This document shows positions 56,052 to 60,564 of a stretch of 64,000 bases of DNA, piece after piece. Location: positions 372,001 to 436,000 of the forward strand of contig NZ_QRDP01000004.1 in assembly GCF_003385775.1 (NCBI RefSeq). The letters run 5' to 3'. A program made the translations under genes and the position numbers. The notes under the pieces were generated by a model. It saw only the letters and a list, made by a program, of their open reading frames with translations, made no database searches and was not told the origin of the DNA. Source of the DNA: Parasphingopyxis lamellibrachiae. GTDB lineage: Bacteria > Pseudomonadota > Alphaproteobacteria > Sphingomonadales > Sphingomonadaceae. The first letter of the stretch is position 1; each line of letters opens with the position of its first letter.

Positions 56052-56149
56052 CGTCACCCCGGTACGTCGCCCCGGCGGGAAGCCGGGGCCTTTTCGGAAG
56101 GGAGTATTGGGCCAGGCCGAAAAGATTCCGCAGGGCAGGCGGAATGACG
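56052..56149. repeat. Nested palindromic intergenic element
   Basis: The 98-bp stretch is bounded by CGTCACCCCG and CGGAATGACG, which are imperfect inverted repeats (8 of 10). Inside are GCCCCGGC/GCCGGGGC (56069-56089), CTTTTCGG/CCGAAAAG, and ATTCCGC/GCGGAAT (56125-56145). This resembles dispersed REP-like elements with GTCATTCC or GTCACCCC ends found in many alphaproteobacterial genomes. Confidence 0.45.
56118..56146 (-). terminator. Rho-independent terminator of the psp operon
   Basis: Read on the minus strand, ATTCCGC and GCGGAAT form a 7-bp stem followed by CTTTTCGG, 16 nt after the last psp-operon stop. It is part of the nested palindromic element. Confidence 0.55.
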
Positions 56150-56161
56150 AATTTCAGTTTG

Positions 56162-56404
56162 TTACAGCTCGATACCCGCAGCGATGGCTTCGAGCTTGCG
56201 GACACGTTCCTTGAGATCGGCGACTTCAATCCGCGACCCCGTGCTGGGTGCGGGGACATCGCCAGACAGGGCCGCCGTCTGCTGCAGCTCCATCCGCTTC
56301 AATTCGAGCCATCCGCGCCAGCCTTTAAGGACGACAAGGCTGGCGATCATCAAGCCAATCAATCCGGCTGCCGTTGTGGCCAGTGTCGGGATCTGATCCT
56401 GCAT
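56162..56404 (-). CDS. Psp-operon small membrane protein 5
   Basis: 80 residues, last gene of the operon. One membrane helix (about residues 8-28, TLATTAAGLIGLMIASLVVL), then WRGWLELKRMELQQTAALSG and a C-terminal coiled coil RIEVADLKERVRKLEAIAAG. It keeps the R-x3-LE-x-I start of the shared module but lacks the T-D-x4-L-x2-E-I-E-x-L-R-D ending. The ATG at 56404 has AAAGGAA upstream. It resembles PspB in plan, but I cannot assign it to PspB proper. Confidence 0.7.
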   Translation of the reverse strand: MQDQIPTLATTAAGLIGLMIASLVVLKGWRGWLELKRMELQQTAALSGDVPAPSTGSRIEVADLKERVRKLEAIAAGIEL

Positions 56405-56435
56405 GACTATTCCTTTCTTTCCTGAACCTTTGTTC

Positions 56436-56705
56436 TTAGCTGTGCGTCTTATCGCGCAGAGCTTCGATTTCATCCTCGAGCCGGTTGCTCTTGTCGGTGG
56501 CAATCCGCTCAAGGACGGCGATGCGATCTTTCAACTGTTTGATCTCTTCCCGCATCCGACCGGCATCGGGGTCGACCAGGCGGCGAGGTTCGCCATTCCC
56601 GTCTTCGACGATCCCTTGTTCGGCCTTGTATTTTGCTCTCAGAACACCGGCGATTGCGGTGATCAGGACGATGGCGACCACCATCGAAAAAGGATTGTCA
56701 AACAT
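56436..56705 (-). CDS. Psp-operon small membrane protein 4 (PspB-like)
   Basis: 89 residues: N-terminal helix (about 6-22, FSMVVAIVLITAIAGVLRAK), an acidic-basic linker, and a C-terminal coiled coil MREEIKQLKDRIAVLERIAT continuing TDKSNRLEDEIEALRD. The ending matches the module shared by PspC and three sibling genes. 28 nt after sibling 3. Predicted to be an inner-membrane protein with a cytoplasmic coiled coil that could touch PspA or PspB/C. Confidence 0.72.
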   Translation of the reverse strand: MFDNPFSMVVAIVLITAIAGVLRAKYKAEQGIVEDGNGEPRRLVDPDAGRMREEIKQLKDRIAVLERIATDKSNRLEDEIEALRDKTHS

Positions 56706-56733
56706 CTAGTATCTCCCTGAACCGTGTTCTCTT

Positions 56734-57003
56734 TTAGTTGAGTGGCTTATCCCGCAGATTCTCGATTTCTTCGCTTAGACCCGTCGAGCGATCTGTAAGG
56801 ATCCGCTCCAGGGTCGCTACGCGCTGCTCGAGCCGTTCGGATTTCGCTGCATATTGGGCAGCGCTTTCTGCCGTCATCCTGACATTGGCATCGGCTTCCG
56901 CCTTGCGAAGTTCGAACCATTTTCCGCCGAAGATCCAGAAGGTGACCGCACAGATCGGAAAAACCACCGTCATCAACAGGATACCCATCAGTTCCAAATC
57001 CAC
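56734..57003 (-). CDS. Psp-operon small membrane protein 3 (PspB-like)
   Basis: 89 residues: membrane helix at about 5-25 (MGILLMTVVFPICAVTFWIF), then WFELRKAEADANVRMTAESA, a long heptad-rich stretch, and the module RVATLERILTDRSTGLSEEI ending ENLRD. It is the copy whose N-terminal part (helix then KWFELRKAE) most resembles the helix-to-charged-stretch join of PspB. 11 nt after sibling 2. No enzymatic motif. Confidence 0.72.
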   Translation of the reverse strand: MDLELMGILLMTVVFPICAVTFWIFGGKWFELRKAEADANVRMTAESAAQYAAKSERLEQRVATLERILTDRSTGLSEEIENLRDKPLN

Positions 57004-57014
57004 GAGCTTTCTCC

Positions 57015-57341
57015 CTATTCGGCCCTGTCACGCAGGCGTTCGATTTCCTGATCCAGCCCGTAGCCACTGTCGGTAACGATGGTTTCGACATTGGCGAGTC
57101 GGTTTTTCAGGCCGGCAAGTTCGTCGCGCAGCTGGCTGTTTTCCTGGTTGAGCAACTTGATCTCTTCGTTTGCTTTGCGATCAACCTGTGGATGGTGCGC
57201 TCCACCCATTCCGTCGTCGAGTGGGTAGCCATTCTTTATCCGCAACCATGTCGTGGTCACCCAGGCGGCCATGACGACGATAACCACTACCGCGATTGCC
57301 GGGGCCAGATCTGCCAACAAACGTGCTTTTTCGGGGTCCAT
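57015..57341 (-). CDS. Psp-operon small membrane protein 2 (PspB-like)
   Basis: 108 residues: membrane helix at about 12-34 (LAPAIAVVVIVVMAAWVTTT), then WLRIKNGYPLDDGMGGAHHP, a segment very like RAKHGYPLEDEWGG of sibling 1, a coiled coil LLNQENSQLRDELAGLKNRL and the module RLANVETIVTDSGYGLDQEI ending ERLRD. The shared (I/A)K(N/H)GYPL(D/E)D block shows that siblings 1 and 2 are the closest pair. 11 nt after sibling 1. Confidence 0.73.
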   Translation of the reverse strand: MDPEKARLLADLAPAIAVVVIVVMAAWVTTTWLRIKNGYPLDDGMGGAHHPQVDRKANEEIKLLNQENSQLRDELAGLKNRLANVETIVTDSGYGLDQEIERLRDRAE

Positions 57342-57352
57342 TCAAATTCTCC

Positions 57353-57655
57353 CTATTCTGCCGCGTCGCGGAGATTTTCGATCTCGTTCGCGAGCCTTGT
57401 ACTGCCATCCGTTGCGATCCGTTCGAGCACCGAAATCCGTTCTTCGAGCCGGACGATCTTGTCCTTCAGTTCGCCATTCTCATTCGACATCAATTCGATC
57501 TTCCGGTCTGTTTCCGGGTTTTTGGGCAGCGTTGTGCCGCCCCATTCATCTTCCAGCGGATAGCCGTGTTTGGCGCGGATGGCCGTGGTGATGATCCATG
57601 CCAGGAAACTCATTCCTATGATGGCCAAAACAAAGGTCGGGCTTCCCCAATTCAT
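57353..57655 (-). CDS. Psp-operon small membrane protein 1 (PspB-like)
   Basis: 100 residues: membrane helix at about 7-27 (TFVLAIIGMSFLAWIITTAI), then RAKHGYPLEDEWGG, a coiled coil KIELMSNENGELKDKIVRLE and the module RISVLERIATDGSTRLANEI ending ENLRD. It follows pspC by 27 nt. The block after the helix is shared with sibling 2. Expected topology is N-out, coiled coil in the cytoplasm, as for PspB. Confidence 0.73.
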   Translation of the reverse strand: MNWGSPTFVLAIIGMSFLAWIITTAIRAKHGYPLEDEWGGTTLPKNPETDRKIELMSNENGELKDKIVRLEERISVLERIATDGSTRLANEIENLRDAAE

Positions 57656-57682
57656 GATGATTTTCTCCCTGAACCTGTAAAC

Positions 57683-58060
57683 TTAACGCAGCGCGTCGAT
57701 TTCCTGGGCGAGCCGCGTATTCTTGCTGGTCACCATCAGTTCCATATCGGCAAGCCGGCGATCGACATCGCGGAATTGTGAGCGGATTGCGTTGACCGAG
57801 CGGCGCGGGTTGGCGCGTGTGCCCTGCCAGAATTTCGCCTCTTCCTCATTCTCGTAAAGATCGAGCGGCTTTTTCGGTGCCAGCCATGCGACGATGAAAT
57901 ACACAAGGAAGAGCGGCGGAAAAAAGAACATCGCGGTGCACATGAACCCGATCCGGGTCCAAAGTGTATCGATGCCCGTATAGTCCGCGACACCCGAACA
58001 GACGCCCAGAAATTTGCCGTTCTGCTTGTCGAGATAGAATTTTGTGCGGCGATCATGCAT
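57683..58060 (-). CDS. pspC: Phage shock protein C, coiled-coil tail variant
   Basis: Inner-membrane partner of PspB that senses envelope stress and recruits PspA. The PspC domain is at the N-terminus: FYLDKQNGKFLGVCSGVADY (residues 8-27) then a membrane helix FMCTAMFFFPPLFLVYFIVA. The C-terminus DVDRRLADMELMVTSKNTRL continuing AQEIDALR is the same module that ends four downstream siblings. 125 residues. It follows pspB by 25 nt. Confidence 0.92.
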   Translation of the reverse strand: MHDRRTKFYLDKQNGKFLGVCSGVADYTGIDTLWTRIGFMCTAMFFFPPLFLVYFIVAWLAPKKPLDLYENEEEAKFWQGTRANPRRSVNAIRSQFRDVDRRLADMELMVTSKNTRLAQEIDALR

Positions 58061-58085
58061 TTTCGGTCTCCTGTTCTTTTGTTCG

Positions 58086-58409
58086 TTACCGTCGGCGTTC
58101 GGCGCGGCTTACATCCTGTTCGGCTATCCGGTCCTCGAACCGCTCTTCGATCCGTTCTTCCCGGGGTGCCTCGTGGCGCAGTGCGCGTTCGCGGGCCCAT
58201 TCAGGGTTATCGGCGGCCATGATTCGTTCGATCGTGTTCATCCGGTCATCCAGTCTGCGCGCCGTGTCATAAAGTTCATCCAGCAAATCCTCGTCTTCCC
58301 GGGTCATCGAACCGGCGCGTTTCCATTGCGTGGAATAGTGGAGGATCAACCAGGGAAGCCCGATGAAGAGCATCCCGACGACGCCGATGGGTACGAGGAT
58401 ATCTTCCAT
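58086..58409 (-). CDS. pspB: Phage shock protein B
   Basis: 107 residues: N-terminal helix MEDILVPIGVVGMLFIGLPW, then ILHYSTQWKRAGSMTREDED and the PspB coiled coil RLDDRMNTIERIMAADNPEW, which matches the family ending (R-x2-LE-x-IL followed by P-x-W). The C-terminal extension of about 30 residues is rich in Arg and Glu. It works with PspC to release PspF from PspA under stress. 3 nt separate it from pspA. Confidence 0.92.
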   Translation of the reverse strand: MEDILVPIGVVGMLFIGLPWLILHYSTQWKRAGSMTREDEDLLDELYDTARRLDDRMNTIERIMAADNPEWARERALRHEAPREERIEERFEDRIAEQDVSRAERRR

Positions 58410-58412
58410 TGT

Positions 58413-59096
58413 TTACGCCTCCTTCGAGTCAGAGCTTTTTTTGCTGGCCTTTTTCATGGCGGCGAGTTCGGCCTCGACCCGATCGCTCGTTTCGAGCTCG
58501 TTGATCTCGTCCTCAAGCGTTTTCGGCTGGCTGCCCAGGGCAAGCGCATCGGCGCGGCCTTCGGCCATGTCGACATGCCGCTCTAGCATTTCAAAGCGTG
58601 CAAAGGCGTCCTGAACCCGGTCGCCATTGTATAGGTCGCGCAGCTTGATCTGGTTTTCGGCGCTTTCGAGGCGGACCGAGATGTTGCTCTGGCGGCTGCG
58701 GGCTTCGCGAAGCTTGCCCTGGAGCTTGGAAATGTCCTGCTCATAGGCGTGAAGCGATTCATCAAGAATGGCGATCTCGCCGTTCAGGCGGTCGGCCATG
58801 TCGGCGGCTTTCTGTTTCTCGACAAGCGCCTGCTTGGCCAGGTCTTCACGATCTTTCGAAAGGGCGAGCTCGGCCTTGTCCTTCCAGCTTTCCTGGAGAT
58901 TTTCGAGCTTGGTGATCGACCGGCGCATTTCCTTCTGGTCGGCAATGGTGCGAGCAGCGGTAGCGCGAACTTCCACCAGCGTTTCTTCCATCTCGAGGAT
59001 GATCATGCGAACCATTTTGGCCGGATCTTCAGCCTTGTCGAGAATGTCGGTGACATTGGCTGCGATGATATCGCGGGTTCGGGAGAAAATTCCCAT
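58413..59096 (-). CDS. pspA: Phage shock protein A
   Basis: Peripheral membrane protein of the PspA/IM30/Vipp1 family, a membrane-stabilising ESCRT-III relative and inhibitor of PspF. MGIFSRTRDIIAANVTDILD is the amphipathic start, PAKMVRMIILEMEETLVEVR the family hallmark, and almost the whole chain is coiled coil. 227 residues is standard. AGGAG lies 8 nt before the ATG. A stable hairpin lies just upstream, between it and the 57-residue first gene. Confidence 0.96.
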   Translation of the reverse strand: MGIFSRTRDIIAANVTDILDKAEDPAKMVRMIILEMEETLVEVRATAARTIADQKEMRRSITKLENLQESWKDKAELALSKDREDLAKQALVEKQKAADMADRLNGEIAILDESLHAYEQDISKLQGKLREARSRQSNISVRLESAENQIKLRDLYNGDRVQDAFARFEMLERHVDMAEGRADALALGSQPKTLEDEINELETSDRVEAELAAMKKASKKSSDSKEA

Positions 59097-59128
59097 GATG
59101 ACTACTCCTAAACCCCTTGAACTAGAAT

Positions 59129-59164
59129 GGCCGGGGAGGGGAAGGGGCTGCCGCCTCCCCGGCC
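59129..59164. other. Stable intercistronic hairpin ahead of pspA
   Basis: GGCCGGGGAGG (59129-59139) and CCTCCCCGGCC (59154-59164) form an 11-bp GC-rich stem without a T-tract, between the first small gene and pspA. It may protect or partition the message. Confidence 0.5.
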
Positions 59165-59176
59165 TGTCTGCTTGGC

Positions 59177-59350
59177 CTAAGCGATGCGGCCCGTAACGAT
59201 GATTGCGCCATCTTGATCGGCCTGAAGCTGCACTGGCTGCGCGGTGCCGCCGTCGATCGGGCCAACTGTCCCGAAGACACAGACGCCGGTCACTGCAAGA
59301 GCGGCCAAGGCGGAAAGGATGTTTTGGCGAATGCTGGTAATGTTGGTCAT
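59177..59350 (-). CDS. 57-residue exported peptide, first gene of the psp operon
   Basis: The frame starts at the ATG at 59350 with AGGAG 8 nt upstream and reads MTNITSIRQNILSALAALAV then TGVCVFGTVGPIDGG, a signal peptide or membrane helix, followed by a short polar tail (QPVQLQADQDGAIIVTGRIA). It is the first gene after the sigma-54 promoter and should be induced with pspA. No family recognised. The single cysteine precedes a possible cleavage region. Confidence 0.65.
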   Translation of the reverse strand: MTNITSIRQNILSALAALAVTGVCVFGTVGPIDGGTAQPVQLQADQDGAIIVTGRIA

Positions 59351-59430: not shown

Positions 59431-59446
59431 TGCAGAGACCGTGCCA
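59431..59446 (-). promoter_or_regulatory. Sigma-54 promoter of the psp operon
   Basis: On the minus strand TGGCACGGTCTCTGCA matches the -24/-12 consensus: GG (59444-59445) and GC (59432-59433) are separated by exactly 10 nt, and the -24 box TGGCACG is perfect. The predicted start is near 59420, about 70 nt before the first ATG. PspF, encoded divergently, is the expected activator, and the AT-rich stretch from 59448 to 59475 could carry IHF and PspF sites. Confidence 0.85.
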
Positions 59447-59547: not shown

Positions 59548-60564
59548 ATGGAACGCGGTGCGCAATTTGTGGGGGAATCGGGCGCTTTTCTCGATGCTGT
59601 CGAGATGGCCAGTCGGGCGGCGGCGCTTGATCGCCCGGTCCTTGTGATCGGCGAGCGGGGCACAGGCAAGGAACTTATAGCCGAGCGTCTACACCGGCTC
59701 AGCCAGCGTTGGGAAGGGCCATTGATCACGCTCAATTGCGCCGCGCTTCCCGAAACGCTGATCGAGGCAGAGCTGTTCGGCCATGAAGCCGGAGCCTTTA
59801 CCGGCGCGACCCGCGCCCGCGCCGGCGCTTTCGAGGAGGCCGATGGCGGTACGCTGTTTCTCGACGAACTGGCCACATTGTCGGCTGCGGCGCAGGAAAG
59901 ACTTTTGCGGGCGGTCGAATATGGCGAAGTCAGCAGGATCGGATCCAACAAGCCCTTGCGGGTCGACGTCCGGATCGTGGCTGCGACCAACGAAAACCTG
60001 CCAAGCCTTGTCGACCGGAACCGGTTTCGGGCGGATTTGCTCGATCGCCTGTCTTTCGAGGTCGTTACGTTGCCGCCGCTCAGGGTGCGCGAAAGCGATA
60101 TTCTCATACTTGCCGATTATTTCGGGCGGCGCATGGCTGCCGAGCTCGATTGGGCTGAATGGCCGGGTTTCGGAGACAATTCGACCAAGATTCTCATGGC
60201 GCATGACTGGCCCGGCAACGTTCGCGAACTGCGCAACGCTGTGGAGCGCGCCGTTTATCGCTGGGATCGTCCATCCGATCCTGTCGATACTATCCAGCTC
60301 GATCCGTTCGACTCTCCATGGCAGATGCCGCCGTCAACCGCCGCCAGTGACGAGCAGCCCGCCCAGGCGGCCGTACAGACGGTTCCGCAGACTGCCAAGC
60401 CGGTCGTGACCGATTTCAAGGCAGCGGTTGAGGTCTATGAGAAAGAGATACTGGAAAACGCCCTGGAAAGAGCCCGGTACAACCAGCGGCAGACCGCCAA
60501 GGCATTGGGACTAAGCTATGATCAGCTCCGCCATGCCCTGAAGCGACACGACATGATCGGCTGA
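59548..60564 (+). CDS. pspF: Psp operon transcriptional activator PspF
   Basis: Sigma-54 enhancer-binding protein without a sensory N-terminal domain: it begins directly with the AAA+ domain, as PspF does. Walker A is GERGTGKE (35-42), the sigma-54 contacting loop is GAFTGAT (82-88), Walker B is GTLFLDE, and R-finger and sensor II regions follow. A linker rich in Pro/Ala/Gln leads to a Fis-type helix-turn-helix (RQTAKALGLSYDQLRHALKR). 338 residues. Divergent from the psp operon and expected to be held inactive by PspA. Confidence 0.94.
   Translation: MERGAQFVGESGAFLDAVEMASRAAALDRPVLVIGERGTGKELIAERLHRLSQRWEGPLITLNCAALPETLIEAELFGHEAGAFTGATRARAGAFEEADGGTLFLDELATLSAAAQERLLRAVEYGEVSRIGSNKPLRVDVRIVAATNENLPSLVDRNRFRADLLDRLSFEVVTLPPLRVRESDILILADYFGRRMAAELDWAEWPGFGDNSTKILMAHDWPGNVRELRNAVERAVYRWDRPSDPVDTIQLDPFDSPWQMPPSTAASDEQPAQAAVQTVPQTAKPVVTDFKAAVEVYEKEILENALERARYNQRQTAKALGLSYDQLRHALKRHDMIG

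Follow-up and report, generated by a model that had tools for sequence, protein, structure and literature searches.

The closest described relatives of the five small genes analysed here, which follow pspA, pspB and pspC and which we call S1-S5, are parts of the phage shock protein (Psp) system. PspB (PF06667, TIGR02976) resembles their products in its single N-terminal membrane helix, in an R-x3-hydrophobic-E anchor set in a heptad register, and in being encoded in the same operon. The S proteins match its profile, yet stay below the curated cut-offs, and they are devoid of both its PW-x3-HY-x-T-x-WK membrane-edge motif and its NP-x-[FW] tail (the HY-x-T-x-WK part and the tail are missing from the S1-S5 consensus), carrying linkers of their own instead. 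The coil at the C-terminus of PspC (roughly positions 76-121 of TIGR02978) ranks with the strongest outside matches that the profiles of S1, S2 and S4 give, and has in common with the S proteins a TD/TS break and an L-x2-EI-x2-L ending, whereas S1-S5 have only one membrane helix and no match to the PspC domain (PF04024). Enterobacterial PspD and PspG, which are under PspF control, are small membrane proteins too, but neither model is found among the family matches of S1-S5, and the S genes are many paralogues rather than one.

Additions of PspB-related genes to pspFABC have been described before. Ravi et al. (2024; PMC11237479, section 17) reported "PspB duplicates" in the operon as well as a fusion of PspC with a divergent PspB at its C-terminus, that is, a PspB-like tail on PspC. 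The main text of that paper gives the duplicates one sentence and one accession (AOL22920.1), describes no paralogue groups, family-wide set or orphan relatives, and nowhere names Sphingomonas or Erythrobacter. Our literature searches retrieved no paper linking pspB or pspC with Sphingomonas or Erythrobacter, nor phage shock protein with Novosphingobium. The S genes, presented as an undescribed system in a preliminary description of this DNA, are therefore of a kind that is not wholly undescribed, while their paralogue groups, their family-wide set and their orphan relatives go beyond the main text of the 2024 paper.

Organisation of the psp locus

The window, a stretch of 64,000 nucleotides from Parasphingopyxis lamellibrachiae, contains a psp locus in which pspA-pspB-pspC and then S1-S5 (80-108 aa) lie on the minus strand. 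PspA, PspB, PspC and PspF were assigned by passing the NCBIfam equivalog cut-offs. The features are as follows:

59548..60564, plus strand: pspF, divergent activator (TIGR02974, 482 bits, above cut-off)
59431..59446, minus strand: sigma-54 (-24/-12) promoter-like site TGGCAC-N5-CTGCA (pattern match)
59177..59350, minus strand: small leader gene encoding 57 aa with a single hydrophobic segment (dN/dS and relatives)
58413..59096, minus strand: pspA (TIGR02977, 268.5 bits, above cut-off)
58086..58409, minus strand: pspB (TIGR02976, 82 bits, above cut-off)
57683..58060, minus strand: pspC (TIGR02978, 116.4 bits, above cut-off)
57686-57811, minus strand: C-terminal coil of pspC, about residues 84-125 (AlphaFold2 helices)
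57353..57655, minus strand: S1, PspB-like paralogue, 100 aa (profile and identity comparisons, AlphaFold2 model)
57015..57341, minus strand: S2, PspB-like paralogue, 108 aa (clade support 1.0)
56734..57003, minus strand: S3, PspB-like paralogue, 89 aa, GTG start (TIGR02976 at 3e-5, sub-threshold)
56436..56705, minus strand: S4, PspB-like paralogue, 89 aa, of a type also found as orphan genes elsewhere (profile comparisons)
56162..56404, minus strand: S5, final gene of the operon, 80 aa from its ATG (clade support 0.999)
56069..56089, no strand assigned: GC-rich hairpin in the S5-sufE interval (minus strand lacking a U-tract)

The five small same-strand genes of the preliminary description are thus all present, with gaps, from pspC onward, of 27, 11, 11, 28 and 31 nt (11-31 nt had been given). 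They are co-directional, closely spaced and downstream of a single sigma-54 promoter-like site, and are probably co-transcribed and expressed along with pspABC under a single PspF/sigma-54 promoter. Such a site lies 5' of pspA in 119 of the 121 loci compared, and across loci 122 sites were counted upstream of pspA versus 18 in the much longer downstream stretch. The operon had also been said to end at a terminator; none of the intrinsic type was found 3' of S5 on the minus strand. The leader gene, upstream of pspA and inside the range first described (56162-59350), has relatives at the same place in 60/85 loci and a dN/dS of 0.15-0.30 in the Parasphingopyxis comparison.

Each of S1-S5 has a single N-terminal hydrophobic segment, as judged from hydropathy and sequence, and the AlphaFold2 model of S1 places a membrane helix at residues 6-30, then a linker and one helix at 47-99, in agreement with the membrane helix and C-terminal coiled coil that had been predicted for all five. 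A Foldseek search of the S1 fold against the PDB returned nothing informative. Positively charged residues directly after the membrane helix suggest that the C-terminal part is cytoplasmic, so that the proteins would share with PspB the succession of one N-terminal membrane helix and a helix predicted to be cytoplasmic. Compared with three other Parasphingopyxis loci, S1-S5 show dN/dS values of 0.05-0.26 (synonymous sites being saturated in one S3 comparison) and are under purifying selection.

Relationship of the S proteins to PspB and PspC

None of S1-S5 reached the cut-off of any Pfam or NCBIfam model. The best PspB scorer, S3, attained 24.2 bits against a cut-off of 51.7 for TIGR02976 and 17.0 against 25.6 for PF06667. 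Profile comparisons with PspB gave 94% for S3 and 85% for S1, and 6 of 120 heptad shuffles equalled the real scores. The C-terminal coil of PspC, for which AlphaFold2 models helices at residues 85-113 and 115-124, was matched by S1-S4 at 91-96% probability, and for each of the four none of 30 heptad-block shuffles reached the real score; S5 matched it at 3% only. PspA, taken as a coiled-coil control, gave at most 5% with S1-S5, and a search of the organism's own genome with the S profile retrieved S1-S4 and the PspC tail only. With these three controls, generic coiled-coil likeness was rejected as the source of the link to PspC. Searches of PDB sequences found no match for PspB of the window, one chance-level match for its PspC (0.22, a lipid transporter) and, for the S profile, weak coiled-coil matches only. 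An R-x3-hydrophobic-E anchor occurs in one heptad register in every S1-S5 and PspB coil, as well as in 118 of 132 PspC sequences, and S5 keeps the coil without the TD-x4-L-x2-EI-x2-L tail.

Profile comparisons therefore appear to tie the S proteins to both PspB and the PspC coil, the PspB link being the weaker when taken alone, and bear out the idea of diverged PspB-type partners. We consider it very improbable that S1-S5 are unrelated passengers on a shared promoter that have come to look like PspB and PspC by coil convergence: this would fit the absence of curated-model matches and the shuffles that equal the PspB score, but the shuffle and PspA controls uphold the PspC link, and the S profile is specific across the whole genome.

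Genes of the S4 type, which also occur alone and distant from psp in other Proteobacteria, argue against convergence as well. The best NCBIfam families of their products are PspB (TIGR02976, down to 2.2e-10) and the PspC tail, and they co-occur with pspA away from the operon: outside Sphingomonadaceae, all 27 genomes with such an orphan (18 genera) have a pspA above the equivalog cut-off, versus 57/379 in the same draw (hypergeometric 9e-26, uncorrected for relatedness). A sigma-54 site was absent from the 500 nt upstream of the orphans in 11 of 13 loci, with two exceptions.

Conservation and divergence in Sphingomonadaceae

Co-conservation with pspABC in relatives, which had been set beforehand as the test of the preliminary reading, was found in 85/85 Sphingomonadaceae psp operons examined, each with 2-8 S-type genes (median 5); the genes are spaced by a median of 11 nt. 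Since they recur in every one of these relatives, S1-S5 are not a chance run of open reading frames. Their order is near-fixed, S5 being the final gene in 79 of the 85, and S1 or S2 is occasionally lost. In other families of the order Sphingomonadales S genes are absent, save for an S4-type gene adjoining a second PspC in one family. The partner proteins of the Psp system are probably far more numerous in Sphingomonadaceae than in the textbook version. In Sphingomonas sediminicola the main operon is without S5, which lies behind a second pspA-pspC pair; a reading of S5 as the PspB substitute of a minimal operon was dropped, as a fuller psp operon with pspB is located elsewhere in this genome.

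In the tree, S2, S3 and S5 form well-supported clades, S1 and S4 being less clear. Each group has its own conserved juxtamembrane or linker motif, and orthologues are mostly closer to each other than paralogues are. Such a pattern suggests components that are specialised, not exchangeable, and the notion of "interchangeable anchors" put forward earlier is not supported. The pattern also makes it improbable that S1-S5 are largely redundant PspB copies kept for dosage. The tandem arrangement, the common coil anchor, the variation in copy number and the occasional losses would suit such a role, yet besides the distinct clades and linkers, S2-S5 are only 25-43% identical to S1 within the genome, and an ordinary pspB stands beside the S genes in nearly all loci.

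Putative role in the Psp response

Taking together what was observed directly, namely gene content, conservation, coil homology, the arrangement of the promoter and the co-occurrence with pspA at genome level, we lean towards the view that S1-S5 are PspB-like paralogues that have diverged and serve the Psp complex as additional coiled-coil partners anchored in the membrane. They would supply the PspB/PspC assembly with further coils held at the membrane, and these coils might pair with each other or, heteromerically, with PspB or PspC. Speaking against coil-mediated pairing, the PspB-PspC contact in E. coli maps to the membrane region and not to the zipper. The S proteins probably dock PspA in the manner of the PspC tail, and could in this way offer places where PspA is drawn off PspF and kept at the membrane under stress. 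Their differing membrane helices and juxtamembrane motifs may respond to different membrane conditions, amounting to a division of labour.

Alternatively, S1-S5 could be effectors and not sensors, that is, PspF-induced small membrane proteins that stabilise or mark damaged membrane like PspD and PspG, with a coil serving self-association only. The S genes do follow the regulatory genes and vary in number among relatives, as accessory effectors might, and PspG of E. coli both self-associates and contacts PspC (PMC3068692). We nevertheless find this rather unlikely, as the S coil is homologous to the part of PspC in which the zipper region that contacts PspA lies, and NCBIfam gave S1-S5 no PspD or PspG match.

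Extending our view of S1-S5 as additional Psp partners, we tentatively envisage a many-membered Psp sensor in Sphingomonadaceae: PspB, PspC and 2-8 S proteins, as many as ten membrane proteins with coils in all, might assemble in varying mixtures, and every S type might report on a membrane condition of its own. On the same tentative view, the S4-type orphans of other Proteobacteria might encode an unrecognised Psp component off the operon. Should these orphans prove to belong to Psp, its known parts list would be incomplete beyond Sphingomonadaceae too. Constant multiplication of the PspB-like part in a whole family provides natural variation in just the part that bears on the sensing of membrane damage by PspB and PspC and on the handover of PspA: operons have 2-8 extra genes, one S gene stands behind a second pspA, and orphan relatives occur in other Proteobacteria.

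Layout of the extended psp operon

The psp genes of the window and the five small genes following pspC (S1 to S5), each encoding one N-terminal membrane helix and a C-terminal coiled coil, are arranged as follows; promoter sites are pattern matches throughout.

59548-60564, plus strand: pspF, divergent, over the NCBIfam equivalog cut-off
59431-59446, minus strand: sigma-54 promoter-like site TGGCAC-N5-CTGCA (pattern match)
59177-59350, minus strand: small leader gene (57 aa, one hydrophobic segment), after the sigma-54 site and before pspA
58413-59096, minus strand: pspA, over the NCBIfam equivalog cut-off
58086-58409, minus strand: pspB, over the NCBIfam equivalog cut-off
57683-58060, minus strand: pspC, over the NCBIfam equivalog cut-off
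57353-57655, minus strand: S1
57015-57341, minus strand: S2
56734-57003, minus strand: S3, GTG start
56436-56705, minus strand: S4
56162-56404, minus strand: S5

The gaps from pspC to S5 measure 27, 11, 11, 28 and 31 nt, in agreement with the spacing given in the preliminary description, which also placed a terminator after S5; we found no convincing one there on the minus strand. The interval from S5 to sufE contains a strong GC-rich hairpin (56069-56089) that lacks a minus-strand U-tract. Relatives of the leader gene (about 50-61 aa) occupy the same position in 60 of 85 Sphingomonadaceae psp loci, often starting with M-[YF]-[DN]-R-x-FF and ending with E-[IL]-A.

Relationship of the S proteins to PspB and PspC

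All five S proteins stay below the Pfam and NCBIfam cut-offs; their closest NCBIfam hits are those of S3 to PspB (3e-5) and of S2 to positions 43-121 of PspC (3e-5). In profile-profile comparisons with 53-132 sequences per group, S1-S4 match one another at probabilities of at least 98.8%, the C-terminal coil of PspC matches S1-S4 at 91-96%, PspB matches S3 at 94%, and S3 and S4 match S5 at 95%; PspA, itself a coiled coil and serving as control, scores at most 5% with any of S1-S5. When the C-terminal heptads were shuffled, the real score was reached in 0 of 30 cases against PspC for each of S1-S4, and in 6 of 120 against PspB. Over the organism's own genome, an S profile matched S1-S4 and, as the sole further hit, the PspC tail. 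The groups have an R-x3-hydrophobic-E anchor in common, at an identical heptad register: all S1-S5 and all PspB sequences carry it, as do 118 of the 132 from PspC. In a parallel dimer, an R at g and an E at the next e have the classical salt-bridge spacing. Judging from these comparisons, S1-S5 appear to be PspB-like, yet are not PspB by the curated PspB models, and the coil of S1-S4 is homologous to the C-terminal segment of PspC, carried on a separate membrane anchor. AlphaFold2 predicts for S1 (50 sequences) a membrane helix (6-30) followed by one long helix (47-99), and a low-confidence model of PspC gives its tail as two helices (85-113 and 115-124) with a break at 114.

Window S1 shares 25-43% identity with the other S proteins and 38-87% with its orthologues, and dN/dS values of 0.05-0.26, from comparisons with unsaturated synonymous sites, indicate purifying selection. 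Among 543 sequences, assigned to orthologue groups by profiles built from these same loci and seeded from a few, the tree recovers S2 and S5 as monophyletic and S3 and S4 as almost monophyletic (S3 well supported, S4 weakly, at 0.38), and does not resolve S1.

Distribution beside and away from psp genes

Within Sphingomonadales, pspA was found in 186 of 199 drawn genomes, and 121 psp regions were examined, window included. All 85 assigned by PspA similarity to the window's family, which corresponds to Sphingomonadaceae in the GTDB sense with presumptive family names for the drawn genomes, carry 2-8 S genes (median 5), usually ordered (S3)-(S1)-(S2)-(S3)-S4-S5, with S5 last in 79 of 85; the intergenic gaps have a median of 11 nt. 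All 80 named S5-bearing loci belong to Sphingomonadaceae or to MAGs named only to higher rank, and psp genes adjoin S5 in 79. Among the 121 regions, psp operons of the order's other families are without S genes, except for seven loci of one family (L057, L062, L143, L146, L147, L148 and L150) with a second short PspC and then an S4-type gene; L057 and L062 then have a gene whose product is about 180 aa long. Strong matches among 289 drawn genomes of the class were confined to the window's family and one other genome.

The main operon of Sphingomonas sediminicola (locus L286) reads S3-S1-S2-S3-S4 without S5, which lies behind a second pspA-pspC pair (L191:6791-8219). Sphingomonas colocasiae has S5 in its main operon and an extra S5 near an SPFH (Band_7) gene away from it (L223:6544-8213); in Bacillus subtilis, an SPFH protein reportedly connects the phage-shock protein with the membrane (PMC8581546). 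From these two exceptions, S5 therefore follows PspA-type systems. The window's own genome holds a second pspA and then a short pspC-type gene with a tail ending in REIDALR (G000:C1:1613921-1614559; loci L002 and L288), with neither pspB nor S genes nearby.

Across 398 genomes of the phylum, one eight-sequence S4 profile matched 48, comprising 19 of the window's family, two weak hits that fall within long reading frames, and 27 others from 18 genera with orphan S4-type genes. The products at the 13 orphan loci read are S-type single-helix proteins; no psp genes lie within about 1.5 kb on either side, and 11 of the 13 have no sigma-54 pattern match within 500 nt upstream. By coordinates, the best orphan matches lie on another contig than pspA or tens of kilobases away. 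For seven scanned orphans, PspB or PspC is the best NCBIfam family, each time under the cut-off; one of them reaches 2.2e-10 to PspB. PspA passes the equivalog cut-off in 27 of 27 orphan-bearing genomes versus 57 of 379 outside the window's family in the same draw (hypergeometric 9e-26, ignoring relatedness), and this co-occurrence is a link to PspA independent of the operon. In one alphaproteobacterial family (f153; L237:1243-1725, L267, L268) the orphans adjoin a dUTPase-like gene, and in L237 they stand in tandem.

Putative roles of the S proteins

A literature search returned no paper linking pspB and pspC to Sphingomonas or to Erythrobacter; neither genus is mentioned in the main text of Ravi et al. 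(2024; PMC11237479), and the words Sphingomonas and Alphaproteobacteria are absent from that of the 2022 survey by Popp et al. (PMC9239133). In E. coli, the C-terminal leucine zipper of PspC (77-98) is required for PspA contact and full induction, and contact between PspB and PspC has been located in the membrane region (PMC3068692). Read most simply, the S proteins, which one operon would produce together with PspA, PspB and PspC, may be further membrane-bound docking or pairing partners of these three; their binding, stoichiometry and signal are what we infer. The preliminary description suggested interchangeable anchors. The membrane and linker motifs are group-specific (KHGYPLEDEWGG in S1, KNGYPL in S2, TAE-x-AAQYA in S3), as are a W-x2-W-x3-K segment and a fixed C-terminus in S5, and such motifs speak for specialised inputs and against exchangeable copies.
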